From Mucilaginibacter psychrotolerans (GTDB taxonomy: Bacteria > Bacteroidota > Bacteroidia > Sphingobacteriales > Sphingobacteriaceae), in the NCBI RefSeq assembly GCF_004519315.1, contig NZ_SOZE01000019.1:1-64000 (forward strand): 64,000 nt of DNA. The letters run 5' to 3'. The notes beneath the pieces are model-generated. The model saw only the letters and a list, made by a program, of their open reading frames with translations. It was not told the origin of the DNA and searched no databases. The stretch's first letter is position 1; every line of letters begins with the position of its first letter. Shown here piece by piece: positions 10,513 through 14,697 of this stretch. The position numbers and the translations under genes are program-made.

Positions 10513-10791
10513 AGTATGGTGCCCGTCTATAGGCAGCATCATGCCAGTGATGTGGCGGGTATGGTTGCAAGTAATAATGGCCGAATTGTTATATAACAGC
10601 GCGGCTATACAGCCATGGGTAATGGTAATTTGCTGATGATTGAGCACTACGATGCCTGTGTCTTCAATCGGTACCGATTTTTTACTTTCCATTTCGCCTA
10701 ACACTTTCAGTTGCGGGAGATCTATCAGCAACTGGCCTTCCTTTAAACTTAGGTAAGCCGGGTTACTAAAGTGAAGCGTGCGTTTTATCAT
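10513..10791 (-). pseudogene. Truncated duplicate of cas1 (first ~93 codons)
   Basis: From the ATG at 10791 the frame gives MIKRTLHFSNPAYLSLKEG and continues in near-identity with the intact Cas1 at 13382-14422 up to GMMLPIDGHHT (about residue 93). There it breaks at 10513 into a spacer-like stretch and the lone CRISPR repeat. Differences are few (for example Q for H and M for K near residue 28-34, and H-R-H-I for H-H-P-T near residue 80), so the copy is fairly recent. It lacks all the catalytic part of Cas1, so it cannot integrate spacers. Codons stay open through the retained part. It belongs to a ~550-bp direct duplication also carrying the tracrRNA region. Confidence 0.92.
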
Positions 10792-11069
10792 ATTGCCTCA
10801 TTTAAATGGTGATGGGTTTAGCAATAGGCTGGTGTTTTGAGACTTCACCAACCTACCAAAAGGCCGGTAATTGACGTTTAATTACTTACACAAATATATA
10901 CTTGGGCGCAACAGGAAAAAAGGGGTGAAAACACGGTATTTTTTGATTTGAAAATAATTGTACCTTGTTTGGCTATAGGGACGAAAATGTGCCTGCATAA
11001 AAAAAGACGAGAGTTCCCCCCGCCTTAAATGTTTTCACAACGGAATAATCCTTATTGCGATTTGCTTTC
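10513..11069. repeat. Left copy of ~550-bp CRISPR-locus duplication
   Basis: Matches 14144-14697 in the same orientation. It covers the cas1 5' end, the intergenic region and the tracrRNA gene. Both copies share the landmarks GTGCCCGTCTATAGGCAGC, GGGGTGAAAACACGGTATTT and CACAACGGAATAATCC. Offsets drift only from 3631 to 3628 bases, so indels are minor. The copies bracket the array, cas2 and most of cas1. Confidence 0.92.
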
Positions 11070-11070
11070 G
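10999..11070 (-). ncRNA. Second tracrRNA-like gene (tracrRNA prime)
   Basis: Read on the minus strand it begins with an anti-repeat (complement of 11055-11069), then AAGGATTATTCCGTTGTGAAA, shown here in part, then a GC-rich hairpin and a run of seven T (10999-11005). This is the typical Bacteroidota type II-C tracrRNA layout. The anti-repeat covers repeat positions 2-16 with one change that would give a G-U wobble. It is shorter than the 18-nt perfect anti-repeat of the other copy. Only 21 bases separate it from the first array repeat. No clear promoter box was found upstream on its strand, so expression is uncertain. Confidence 0.7.
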
Positions 11071-11090
11071 ATGTAAAGAGATACAATTTA

Positions 11091-12958
11091 GTTGTGATTT
11101 GCTTTCATTCTTTGAACAACTGATATTTGGAACAACTATTGGTATAGATACACCGCCCGGCACGTTGTTGTGATTTGCTTTCATTCTTTGAACAACTGAT
11201 ATTTGGAACAACAAGTGGCGCAACGAAAGCATCAAAGGTGGAGTTGTGATTTGCTTTCATTCTTTGAACAACTGATATTTGGAACAACGGGAAGGTAATA
11301 TCATTCGTTAAGCAGGTTGTTGTGATTTGCTTTCATTCTTTGAACAACTGATATTTGGAACAACCTTCATGGGCGCATACATCAACACGGGAGTGTTGTG
11401 ATTTGCTTTCATTCTTTGAACAACTGATATTTGGAACAACCTGAAAAGCTTAAAGTATCGCTCGATACTCGTTGTGATTTGCTTTCATTCTTTGAACAAC
11501 TGATATTTGGAACAACAATTAAGTATAAAGGGGCAGAACCATATTGTTGTGATTTGCTTTCATTCTTTGAACAACTGATATTTGGAACAACGGTAATGGA
11601 AGTATAAGCGAAGTAACAGCAGTTGTGATTTGCTTTCATTCTTTGAACAACTGATATTTGGAACAACCACATTCGAAATAGACCTAGACTGCGACATGTT
11701 GTGATTTGCTTTCATTCTTTGAACAACTGATATTTGGAACAACGCTGAAAGGAACATTGCAGTTTATGGTACAGTTGTGATTTGCTTTCATTCTTTGAAC
11801 AACTGATATTTGGAACAACTAAATGCAGGTAAAATGACCATGGGAAGTGGTTGTGATTTGCTTTCATTCTTTGAACAACTGATATTTGGAACAACAAAAA
11901 ATAGAACAACTACGCGAAGTCCTTAGTTGTGATTTGCTTTCATTCTTTGAACAACTGATATTTGGAACAACTGTAATTATTTGCCGCCGCTACCCGCGCT
12001 AGTTGTGATTTGCTTTCATTCTTTGAACAACTGATATTTGGAACAACGGTGTATGCGATTTAGATGCGTGGTTTACCGTTGTGATTTGCTTTCATTCTTT
12101 GAACAACTGATATTTGGAACAACGATACTTTCACGGATAAGCCGATTTATGAAGTTGTGATTTGCTTTCATTCTTTGAACAACTGATATTTGGAACAACG
12201 CCGTACTTCGCCGGGCGGTCCCATTCAATGTTGTGATTTGCTTTCATTCTTTGAACAACTGATATTTGGAACAACTGTAATTCGTGTTGCCATAGTAGTA
12301 AGATAGTTGTGATTTGCTTTCATTCTTTGAACAACTGATATTTGGAACAACAGCAGAGGCTTTAACGCATTATGGCGTATTGTTGTGATTTGCTTTCATT
12401 CTTTGAACAACTGATATTTGGAACAACAGACCACGTTACCGATGTGAGCGAGAATGTGTTGTGATTTGCTTTCATTCTTTGAACAACTGATATTTGGAAC
12501 AACGGCTTTCCCGCAATGCCGCTATTATTGGGAGTTGTGATTTGCTTTCATTCTTTGAACAACTGATATTTGGAACAACCAAACGGTAGCTCATCCTCGG
12601 TAAATCGGTGTTGTGATTTGCTTTCATTCTTTGAACAACTGATATTTGGAACAACGGCAACGAGGCCGTTATCGATGATGAGGTTGTTGTGATTTGCTTT
12701 CATTCTTTGAACAACTGATATTTGGAACAACATCACCAGCAGCAACGCCGTTACCAAGGTGTTGTGATTTGCTTTCATTCTTTGAACAACTGATATTTGG
12801 AACAACGAGGGTGTGCGCCAGGGCGATGATATCTACGTTGTGATTTGCTTTCATTCTTTGAACAACTGATATTTGGAACAACCTCTACGAGCATGGGCTA
12901 TACCTGATTTGTGTTGTGATTTGCTTTCATTCTTTGAACAACTGATATTTGGAACAAC
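11091..12958 (+). CRISPR. Type II-C CRISPR array, 25 repeats and 24 spacers
   Basis: The repeat is 46 bases, starting GTTGTGATTTGCTTTCATTC and ending ATATTTGGAACAAC. All 25 copies (first at 11091, last at 12913) look identical. The period is 76, giving 30-nt spacers, except for two 29-nt spacers (before the repeats at 11546 and 12761). All spacers look different from one another. Orientation is set by the tracrRNA, whose anti-repeat complements the GTTGTGATTTGC end. Thus crRNAs read on the plus strand as spacer followed by repeat. Each repeat contains TTTG, 20 bases, then GATATTTG, close to a Bacteroidota promoter. There is no ordinary leader on the left because the second tracrRNA-like gene is there. 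Nothing here identifies the targets. Confidence 0.98.
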
Positions 12959-13044: not shown

Positions 13045-13048
13045 AATT

Positions 13049-13378
13049 TTAAAACAATTCCAATTGCTGCGGTGTGTTGGGCAGCTCTTTTTCTTCCTTG
13101 CCATAAAATAATTCCATCATGCCAAACTGCTTATCGGTAATGGTCATGATGCCTACATGCCCTTTAGGCGGGAGTATTTTTTTTACGCGTTTAATGTGTA
13201 CATCGGCGTTTTCGCGGCTGCTGCAATGCCGCAGGTAAATGGAAAATTGGAACATGCCGAAGCCATCTTTCATAATATCCTTACGAAAGCGGCTGGCGAT
13301 CTGCCTGTCCTTTTTGGTTTCTGTAGGCAGGTCAAAAAATACTAATACCCACAAAATGCGGTATTCATTTAAGCGCAT
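13049..13378 (-). CDS. cas2: CRISPR-associated endonuclease Cas2
   Basis: 109 aa. The ferredoxin-like N-terminus [19 protein letters not shown] carries the conserved Asp of Cas2 (VFFDLPT). [10 protein letters not shown] and [17 protein letters not shown] complete the fold, and the tail ([11 protein letters not shown]) is common in type II-C Cas2. It forms the scaffold of the Cas1-Cas2 integrase that inserts new spacers. It starts three bases after the end of cas1 and so is cotranscribed with it. Transcription runs on the minus strand towards the array, and the two are separated by a bidirectional terminator. Confidence 0.96.
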
Positions 13379-13381
13379 CCA

Positions 13382-14422
13382 TTAAAAAGGTAATTCTTCG
13401 TCTTCATCCTCACTGCTTGTCATATTATAAACTCCCTCATCCTCGGCTACTAAGCTTATAGGCCCCTCTTCATCAATTTTATACAGTATTCCACGCTTAG
13501 TGCTGAAGTCTTTCATTATCGGGTACGTAATCTTCCTTATTTTGCCTTCATAACACCGCGCTAAAGAAGCGGTAGTATTTTGTACCCCAACCATTAAAGG
13601 GCTCCTGCTTTTTTCAAACTGCACGTCTACCGTGGCAATAGCCAATAATTGCGACTTGATGGAAGCACCCAGTTCTAAAAAATTCTCGCCGTTATCAATT
13701 ATCCGCAAAACAATCAGATCTACATACGGGCGGTAAGGCTCCATAATGTCATCAGCCAGGCAATAAGCATTATATTTATTCCGGTGGTGGATGCCCAAAG
13801 TGGGGATGAGGCCCGAGCAAACCAGCCCGCGTGCCACTATGGCCCTCAATATGGCGTAGCCGTAATTCAGCAGGTTGTTAGGCGGGTCGCCCTCCCGGCC
13901 CCGAAAGAACGCTACCTTTTTTGGGAAAACATTTTTCCAATAGTAAGCCGCTGCCCGCCCCTCGTAATTATCAGGGTCGCCAGACCGTACGGACTTTGCC
14001 CAATGCAGCATATTGTCATAAGCAACACCCCTGTCTGCCAGTACAGCGGCCTGGTTTAATATTTTAGTTTGTATGGTTTGCTGCCAAAGCTGCTTTTTTA
14101 AAGGTTGCGAGGCATCTATCTGGTGCCTAAAGCGTTCGCTTTGAGTATGGTGCCCGTCTATAGGCAGCATCATGCCGGTGGGGTGGTGGGTATGATCGCA
14201 GGTGATAATGGCCGAATTGTTATACAACAGCGCGGCTATGCAGCCGTGGGTAATGGTAATTTGCTGATGATCCAGCACAACAATCCCTATATCCTCAATA
14301 GGTACCGATTTCTTACTTTCTTTTTCGCCCAGCACTTTCAGGTGCGGAAGGTCTATCAGTAACTGGCCTTCCTTTAAGCTTAGGTAAGCCGGGTTACTAA
14401 AGTGAAGCGTGCGTTTTATCAT
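13382..14422 (-). CDS. cas1: Type II CRISPR-associated endonuclease Cas1
   Basis: 346 aa integrase of the adaptation complex. The N-terminal beta domain starts MIKRTLHFSNPAYLSLKEG. The C-terminal helical domain holds the metal ligands: Glu in YEGRAAAYYWKNVFP, His in LIPTLGIHHRN, and Asp in LADDIMEPYRPYVD. The protein ends in an acidic stretch (SSEDEDEELPF). It is the only full-length cas1; a truncated copy of its first ~93 codons lies at 10513-10791. The order cas9 (divergent), tracrRNA, cas1, cas2, array without csn2 or cas4 defines subtype II-C. The promoter must lie in the segment shared by both copies of the duplication. Confidence 0.97.
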   Translation of the reverse strand: MIKRTLHFSNPAYLSLKEGQLLIDLPHLKVLGEKESKKSVPIEDIGIVVLDHQQITITHGCIAALLYNNSAIITCDHTHHPTGMMLPIDGHHTQSERFRHQIDASQPLKKQLWQQTIQTKILNQAAVLADRGVAYDNMLHWAKSVRSGDPDNYEGRAAAYYWKNVFPKKVAFFRGREGDPPNNLLNYGYAILRAIVARGLVCSGLIPTLGIHHRNKYNAYCLADDIMEPYRPYVDLIVLRIIDNGENFLELGASIKSQLLAIATVDVQFEKSRSPLMVGVQNTTASLARCYEGKIRKITYPIMKDFSTKRGILYKIDEEGPISLVAEDEGVYNMTSSEDEDEELPF

Positions 14423-14697
14423 ACTGGCCCAGTTTAATCGTGATAGGCAAATGGCTACGGGCGGTTGGGGGATACCGCGCCGCCAAATTGGTTGTAATTG
14501 GTATTTAGTTACTTAACCAAATATATGCCTGGGAGCAACAAGAAAAAAGGGGTGAAAACACGGTATTTTTTGGGAGGGGAATAATTGTACCTTGTTTGGC
14601 TATAAGGACGAAAAGGCGCTTGCATAAAAAAAGACGAGAGTTGCCCCCCGCCTTAAATGTTTTCACAACGGAATAATCCTTATTGTGATTTGCTTTC
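14144..14697. repeat. Right copy of ~550-bp CRISPR-locus duplication
   Basis: Counterpart of 10513-11069 in direct orientation. It contains the first ~93 codons of the intact cas1, the cas1 upstream region and the tracrRNA gene. Outside these limits the flanks are unrelated: cas1 continues on the left, and cas9 begins on the right. Confidence 0.92.

Follow-up and report, generated by a model that had tools for sequence, protein, structure and literature searches.

A 64,000-nucleotide (nt) stretch of Mucilaginibacter psychrotolerans (positions 1 to 64,000 of contig NZ_SOZE01000019.1, assembly GCF_004519315.1), hereafter the window, carries a type II-C CRISPR (clustered regularly interspaced short palindromic repeats) locus with a second, truncated cas1 (cas1') and a second trans-activating CRISPR RNA (tracrRNA) gene (tracr') next to its array. 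We consider it moderately probable that the segment holding them (10437-11090) is the scar of an exchange of effector modules between diverged II-C loci, and not a fresh duplication. The two copies of the cas1-tracrRNA block are diverged and tracr' contains mixed sequence states, while the pattern of selection fits a long period of function followed by later relaxation of cas1'. The features of the locus are as follows.

10437-10482, plus strand: degenerate CRISPR repeat, differing from the 46-nt array repeat at three positions; old trailer end of an array
10483-10512, plus strand: one spacer-like segment, exactly 30 nt long, abutting the truncated cas1
10513-10791, minus strand: cas1' (copy 1), cas1 codons 1-93, N-terminal domain only
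10891-10898, minus strand: TATATTTG, promoter-like motif upstream of the truncated cas1
10998-11069, minus strand: tracr' (copy 1 tracrRNA gene), antirepeat with ATCGC, core and terminator; ends from sequence reading
11070-11090, minus strand: 21 nt upstream of tracr', like the tracrRNA genes of G061, G025 and G105 (b-type, defined below) and unlike copy 2
11091-12958, plus strand: CRISPR array, 25 identical 46-nt repeats and 24 spacers of 29-30 nt
12959-13048, strand not assigned: leader on the cas2 side of the array, with similar sequence in relatives
13049-13378, minus strand: cas2 (TIGR01573)
13382-14422, minus strand: cas1, full length (TIGR03639), its codons 1-93 forming part of copy 2
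14518-14525, minus strand: TATATTTG, promoter-like motif upstream of the full-length cas1
14625-14699, minus strand: copy 2 tracrRNA gene, adjoining cas9; ends from sequence reading
14753-19246, plus strand: cas9, 1497 amino acids (TIGR01865, E 2.5e-112; RuvC_III and HNH_4)

Divergence between the two copies

The segment 10513-11069 is repeated at 14144-14697 on the same strand, 3.63 kb away, with the array, cas2 and most of cas1 between the copies. These coordinates, the direct orientation and the presence of a second cas1 fragment and a second tracrRNA at this II-C locus agree with a preliminary description of the DNA, which had also held that the copies differ by few bases and that the event is recent. 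Neither of these two claims is borne out. The alignment that the description itself had proposed gives 467 identical and 91 differing positions over 558 aligned columns (5 gap columns), a divergence of 16% that is uneven by part: identity is 249/279 in cas1, 54/99 in the cas1 5' untranslated region, 87/100 in the intergenic region and 77/80 in the tracrRNA (55-96%). A recent tandem duplication would have left near-identical copies with evenly spread differences. As to age, the cas1 codons stand at a synonymous divergence (dS) of 0.47 with a mark of purifying selection through most of the period after their split, and the antirepeat and upstream sequence of tracr' resemble those of another lineage.

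The relationship of the copies is nonetheless far beyond chance (E 2.6e-175 for the second copy in a search of the own genome), and both contain the tracrRNA core, the terminator hairpin and TATATTTG upstream of cas1. Their longest identical runs are of 45 and 42 nt, so recombination between them, deleting the array, cas2 and most of cas1, is conceivable, although at a low rate. With 16% divergence, the second copy cannot be a single locus doubled in assembly. The degenerate repeat, the 30-nt spacer and the differing 21 nt ahead of the first antirepeat are additions to the preliminary description.

Selection and decay in cas1

Over the 93 codons common to the two cas1 copies, dS is 0.465 and nonsynonymous divergence (dN) 0.040, a ratio of 0.086, and the differences fall 4/4/22 at codon positions 1/2/3 (22 of 30 in third position). 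This ratio and the third-position excess make it most likely that both copies diverged as working cas1 genes and that copy 1 was truncated later. In a tree of 24 rows the two copies are sisters (support 99/98), with a branch of 0.13 for copy 1 and 0.037 for copy 2. When changes were polarised by the majority base among 12 relatives at each differing site, copy 1 received 7 nonsynonymous and 9 synonymous changes and copy 2 received 3 and 10, one site being tied. At its seven nonsynonymous sites the copy 1 base is absent from all 12 relatives, and copy 1 is altered at D51 and P81, both invariant in 20 compared sequences. A simple fit places the dead fraction of the copy 1 branch at 0.14-0.21 (95% range 0-0.58), and a model in which copy 1 was always dead is worse by 4.3 log units; through much of the time since the split, copy 1 was probably part of a functional cas1.

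What is left of it is the N-terminal domain, without the C-terminal catalytic domain. In a predicted Cas1 structure of moderate confidence (mean predicted local distance difference test score 63.5), which served for the domain boundary only, the N-terminal strands extend no further than residue 86 and the first long helix begins at residue 93; the catalytic residues, we take it, lie past the part kept in cas1'. Lacking that domain, cas1' is most likely dead as an integrase and would not integrate spacers. It retains the promoter-like motif upstream, and the 132-residue open reading frame that holds it (10393-10791; TIGR03639, E 1.4e-16, below that profile's cut-off) continues through the spacer and the degenerate repeat.

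A second tracrRNA of mixed type

No tracrRNA family was reported in the window by Rfam at gathering scores, and the tracrRNA genes were therefore identified by core, antirepeat and terminator. The two genes have in common an unusual terminator and a 42-nt identical run in the core; the terminator hairpin of 10 pairs is kept in tracr', with a loop one base shorter. The antirepeat reads ATCGC in copy 1, and ATCAC or TTCAC in copy 2 and most others. Among 85 tracrRNA rows, which include repeat fetches, the antirepeat AAATCG occurs with the core GTGTAAACAT in eight rows, corresponding without repeats to four loci (G061, G025, G105 and G142, here called b-type), and with the core GTGAAAACAT in copy 1 alone. 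The 21 nt upstream of tracr' give their highest gapped scores with G061 and G025 (11 each) and G105 (8), followed by L066 at 7, a value equal to the maximum of 2000 shuffles.

The four b-type loci form a single cas9 clade (support 100/100), and their cas9 proteins are 30-47% identical to that of the window (local alignments, first 400 residues). The closest cas9 to the window's among 12 compared is that of G046, whose tracrRNA-cas9 intergenic region resembles, by eye, that of copy 2. Sequence comparison thus suggests that tracr' is quite probably a hybrid, with a core and terminator like those of the resident gene and an antirepeat and upstream 21 nt like those of another cas9 clade. According to a published report (PMC3936727, in the excerpt available), a dual RNA functions only with Cas9 proteins that are close relatives; retention of the resident-type core in tracr' fits this.

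Two features expected of a functional tracrRNA are present in tracr', namely antirepeat pairing and a conserved core with its terminator hairpin. The predicted duplex with the array repeat has -23.0 kcal/mol versus -28.1 kcal/mol for copy 2; it is shorter, and one G-U replaces an A-U. Since it pairs with the repeat and keeps the resident-type core, tracr' may serve as a second usable tracrRNA expressed from another promoter. The exact sequence TANNTTTG is absent upstream of tracr' as well as upstream of the copy 2 antirepeat. A regulatory long form of tracrRNA is a known feature of type II-A systems.

Exchange of cas9 against cas1 in the genus

The exchange of Cas9 and tracrRNA between type II loci is a known process, and trees of the genus indicate that cas9 is exchanged against cas1 elsewhere in Mucilaginibacter. 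G105 and G046 have cas1 genes that fall in one group (support 96/87 over 93 codons) and cas9 genes that lie in different clades; in a further tree these two cas1 have short branches, inside a fork that also holds G025. Across the 13 fetched genus loci with cas1, identity to the window is 70-90% for cas1, 84-98% for cas2 and 23-84% for stretches of cas9. For Flavobacterium psychrophilum, exchange of Cas9 by homologous recombination in a II-C locus has been proposed (PMC10309648, in the portion at hand).

Origin of the block

Both borders of the block fall at or near a step in the register of the array. The left junction (10512/10513) lies exactly at the end of the 30-nt spacer, cas1 homology beginning at the next base, and the right junction (11090/11091) lies within a few bases of the start of an intact repeat. 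The degenerate repeat matches the array repeats at 93% in a search of the own genome, is also matched by blastn, and hits Rfam CRISPR-DR49 under the gathering score (E 0.04). The spacer beside it occurs only once in the genome, even when up to 3 mismatches are allowed. Spacings between repeat starts are of 74-79 nt in 850 of 859 cases at 21 loci, and most of the nine off-register spacings include an antirepeat. Degenerate outermost repeats on the side away from cas2 occur in five of 15 relatives (L039, L040, L046, L062, L067), and L068 has its outermost repeat 1.49 kb away from its array.

Under the module-exchange reading, cas1'-tracr' would have formed the end of an earlier version of the locus, and a crossover within the tracrRNA gene would have linked its core to a promoter and antirepeat from another cas9 clade. 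At a later stage the locus of a sister lineage, with array, cas2, cas1, tracrRNA and cas9, would have been joined on. Loss of the older array and cas2, of the C-terminal part of cas1 and of any older cas9 would account for what remains, namely a single repeat, a single spacer, cas1' and tracr'. The order of these events and the existence of an older cas9 are what we infer from the remaining pieces.

Several points weigh against this scenario. No cas9 remnant was found beside tracr', nor a donor strain. The b-type likeness of tracr' consists of 21 nt and one antirepeat base only; in ungapped comparison of the upstream sequence G061 and G025 match at 16/21 and G105 at 13, tied with an unrelated row, and the list of best upstream matches does not include the fourth b-type locus, G142. 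The link between antirepeat and core has exceptions, because L108 (Bacteroidota) joins ATCGC to GTGAAAACAT, outside the pattern of the 85-row comparison, and G058, whose cas9 was not extracted, joins the core GTGTAAACAT to ATCAC. The assignment of cas1 changes to the two copies uses the majority of relatives and no full model. Finally, a left junction at the exact end of a spacer is not predicted by random deletion; we roughly estimate the chance of both junction coincidences in a random rearrangement to be of the order of 1%, and as these are unlikely together there is room for a register-keeping or integrase-type insertion.

Among the alternatives, the best is an old duplication within the lineage, in which two complete II-C loci, adjacent and both functional, persisted until a recent truncation of the first, with no outside DNA involved. 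It accounts for the selection pattern in cas1 and for the unusual terminator common to both tracrRNAs. However, recombination should have removed tandem copies with a common array repeat well before dS reached 0.47, and the b-type-like antirepeat and upstream sequence of tracr' are left unexplained, so that we regard this alternative as rather unlikely.

Capture by an integrase, in which Cas1-Cas2, or some comparable event that keeps the register, inserted a piece of about 578 bp from another II-C locus into the array where a spacer meets a repeat, would explain the exact 30-nt spacer with cas1 homology starting at the next base, the end of the block at the start of an intact repeat, and the strict register of the arrays. 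It is nevertheless very unlikely: after full integration a repeat should separate the spacer from the block, and there is none; the other spacers measure 29-30 nt, far less than 578 bp; the position of the right border is uncertain by a few bases; and the parted outermost repeat of L068 means that such parting by itself needs no integrase. A bolder form of this idea, which we find highly improbable, is that a piece of about 578 bp from a rival system was captured by the integrase at the old end of the array, precisely where a spacer borders a repeat, and that its hybrid tracrRNA, driven by an other-lineage promoter, still serves the resident Cas9 as a second, separately controlled tracrRNA.

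The preliminary description proposed that the locus underwent a recent tandem duplication in this strain and may now be unstable. The same order and orientation of direct repeats 3.63 kb apart and the sister position of the cas1 copies in the 24-row tree agree with it, but it is largely refuted by the divergence (16% overall, dS 0.47 at a ratio of 0.086), which is moreover uneven (96% identity in the tracrRNA, 89% in cas1, 55% in the untranslated region), and by a sequence upstream of tracr' that differs from copy 2; we give it little credence. A misjoin of the assembly at a CRISPR repeat is barely credible: the assembly does consist of 109 contigs, and a repeat present 25 times adjoins one junction, but 91 of 558 columns differ between the copies and the matches to the repeat are all on this contig, so that no second array of this repeat was seen to misjoin.

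If module exchange is the correct reading, the locus bears on a process whose joins are rarely visible, the leftover piece being one candidate for a join made during Cas9/tracrRNA exchange. It suggests that the conserved tracrRNA gene itself can be the crossover point, which would yield hybrids with promoter and antirepeat from one system and the Cas9-binding part from another. The locus would also offer a direct way of asking whether two tracrRNAs can be used by one system. Should it prove to be no more than a dead scar, it would still preserve a neat fossil record and warn against calling such duplications recent.

Distribution of the arrangement

We searched for tracrRNA genes with a pattern allowing up to 3 mismatches, by which more diverged genes are missed. 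The pattern was found in 13 of 149 genomes of the genus and 44 of 400 of the order, with two copies in this genome only, and in 26 of 395 of the phylum, with two copies in this genome and in G567. The gene is thus single in 12/13, 43/44 and 24/26 of the matching genomes, respectively, which bears out the earlier statement that II-C loci normally carry one tracrRNA. Among loci fetched by cas1, two tracrRNA cores were also seen in L074, L086 and L100.

These three loci and that of G567 (L162) are like the window in having two tracrRNA cores at one locus. Unlike the window, no second cas1 fragment is present in L074, L086 or L100, and none is found among the open reading frames of at least 150 residues in L162, whose two tracrRNAs (at 5871 and 12275) are, again unlike those of the window, of different type. 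More generally, no locus other than the window had a second cas1 fragment at E <= 1e-4 among the window and 94 loci, a set with limited flanks in which several contigs were fetched twice. One candidate, L084, was rejected, its two stretches being adjacent parts of one gene.

The double-tracrRNA loci differ in their layout. In L162 one tracrRNA lies at cas9 and the other between cas2 and the array, the latter with an antirepeat closer to the array repeat. The tracrRNAs of L100, from an Ignavibacteria metagenome-assembled genome, lie at about 5315 and 19364 within a dispersed repeat whose copies span about 330-720 bp at 89-95% identity. Those of L086 are at 1192 and 3954, 2.8 kb apart, with a 93-bp match of 90% identity, and L074 has at about 5390 tandem cores 68 bp apart with two kinds of terminator.

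A search for the block in plasmids returned three records with short matches only (coverage <=14%). The first spacer and the array gave only weak matches to phages, the best at E 0.2 among the best 20 of 22 records, and we therefore claim no spacer target. Among the matches listed for the left and right flanks, most were short dispersed repeats or scattered matches to genes, and none was recognised as coming from a relative that carries the two flanks together; resident and incomer are not distinguishable in this way. Among the literature titles and abstracts listed for two tracrRNAs, duplicated or partial cas1 and module exchange, none described the arrangement.

The resident system and related II-C loci

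The assignment to type II-C follows from a cas9 with RuvC and HNH domains, from a type II cas1 and cas2 with neither csn2 nor cas4, and from a copy 2 antirepeat complementary to the repeat. The other open reading frames of at least 80 residues between the array and the end of cas9 all overlap cas1 or cas9, and four flanking ones scanned contain no csn2 or cas4 domain. This cas9 is the only genome match to its query at E <= 0.001. By analogy with its family, the resident system is expected to behave like other II-C systems, with guides on the plus strand of the array, as the antirepeat implies, a minus-strand tracrRNA and cutting by Cas9.

The II-C locus of Riemerella anatipestifer, so far as described in the available part of PMC5006608, has the same layout, with cas9, cas1 and cas2, a leader between cas2 and the array, and the antirepeat upstream of cas9. 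No promoter was found in its repeats according to the same part, unlike the promoter-like sequence in those of the window, where each repeat holds TTTG, 20 nt and GATATTTG, near the Bacteroidota promoter consensus as read from the sequence. For F. psychrophilum a promoter motif has been proposed in each repeat (PMC10309648, same portion). As far as these portions go, the window alone has a truncated second cas1 and a second tracrRNA at the trailer end of the array. The replacement of the effector gene within a conserved II-C locus described in F. psychrophilum (PMC10309648, same portion) is akin to the exchange read here; there cas9 is the exchanged gene and insertion sequence elements are inserted nearby, whereas the window keeps a piece of cas1 and a mixed-type tracrRNA.

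Neighbouring elements

To the right of cas9, the window contains at 19441-19553 an element of about 100 bp matched in many genus genomes, which overlaps a weak Flavo-1 RNA match under the gathering score, and at 19601-20252 a tandem repeat of 147-bp units with open reading frames of repeated peptides. On the left, at 9683-9713, lies a short dispersed element, CATCCTGAGCGATAGCGAAGGATC, matched in many genus genomes among the matches listed.

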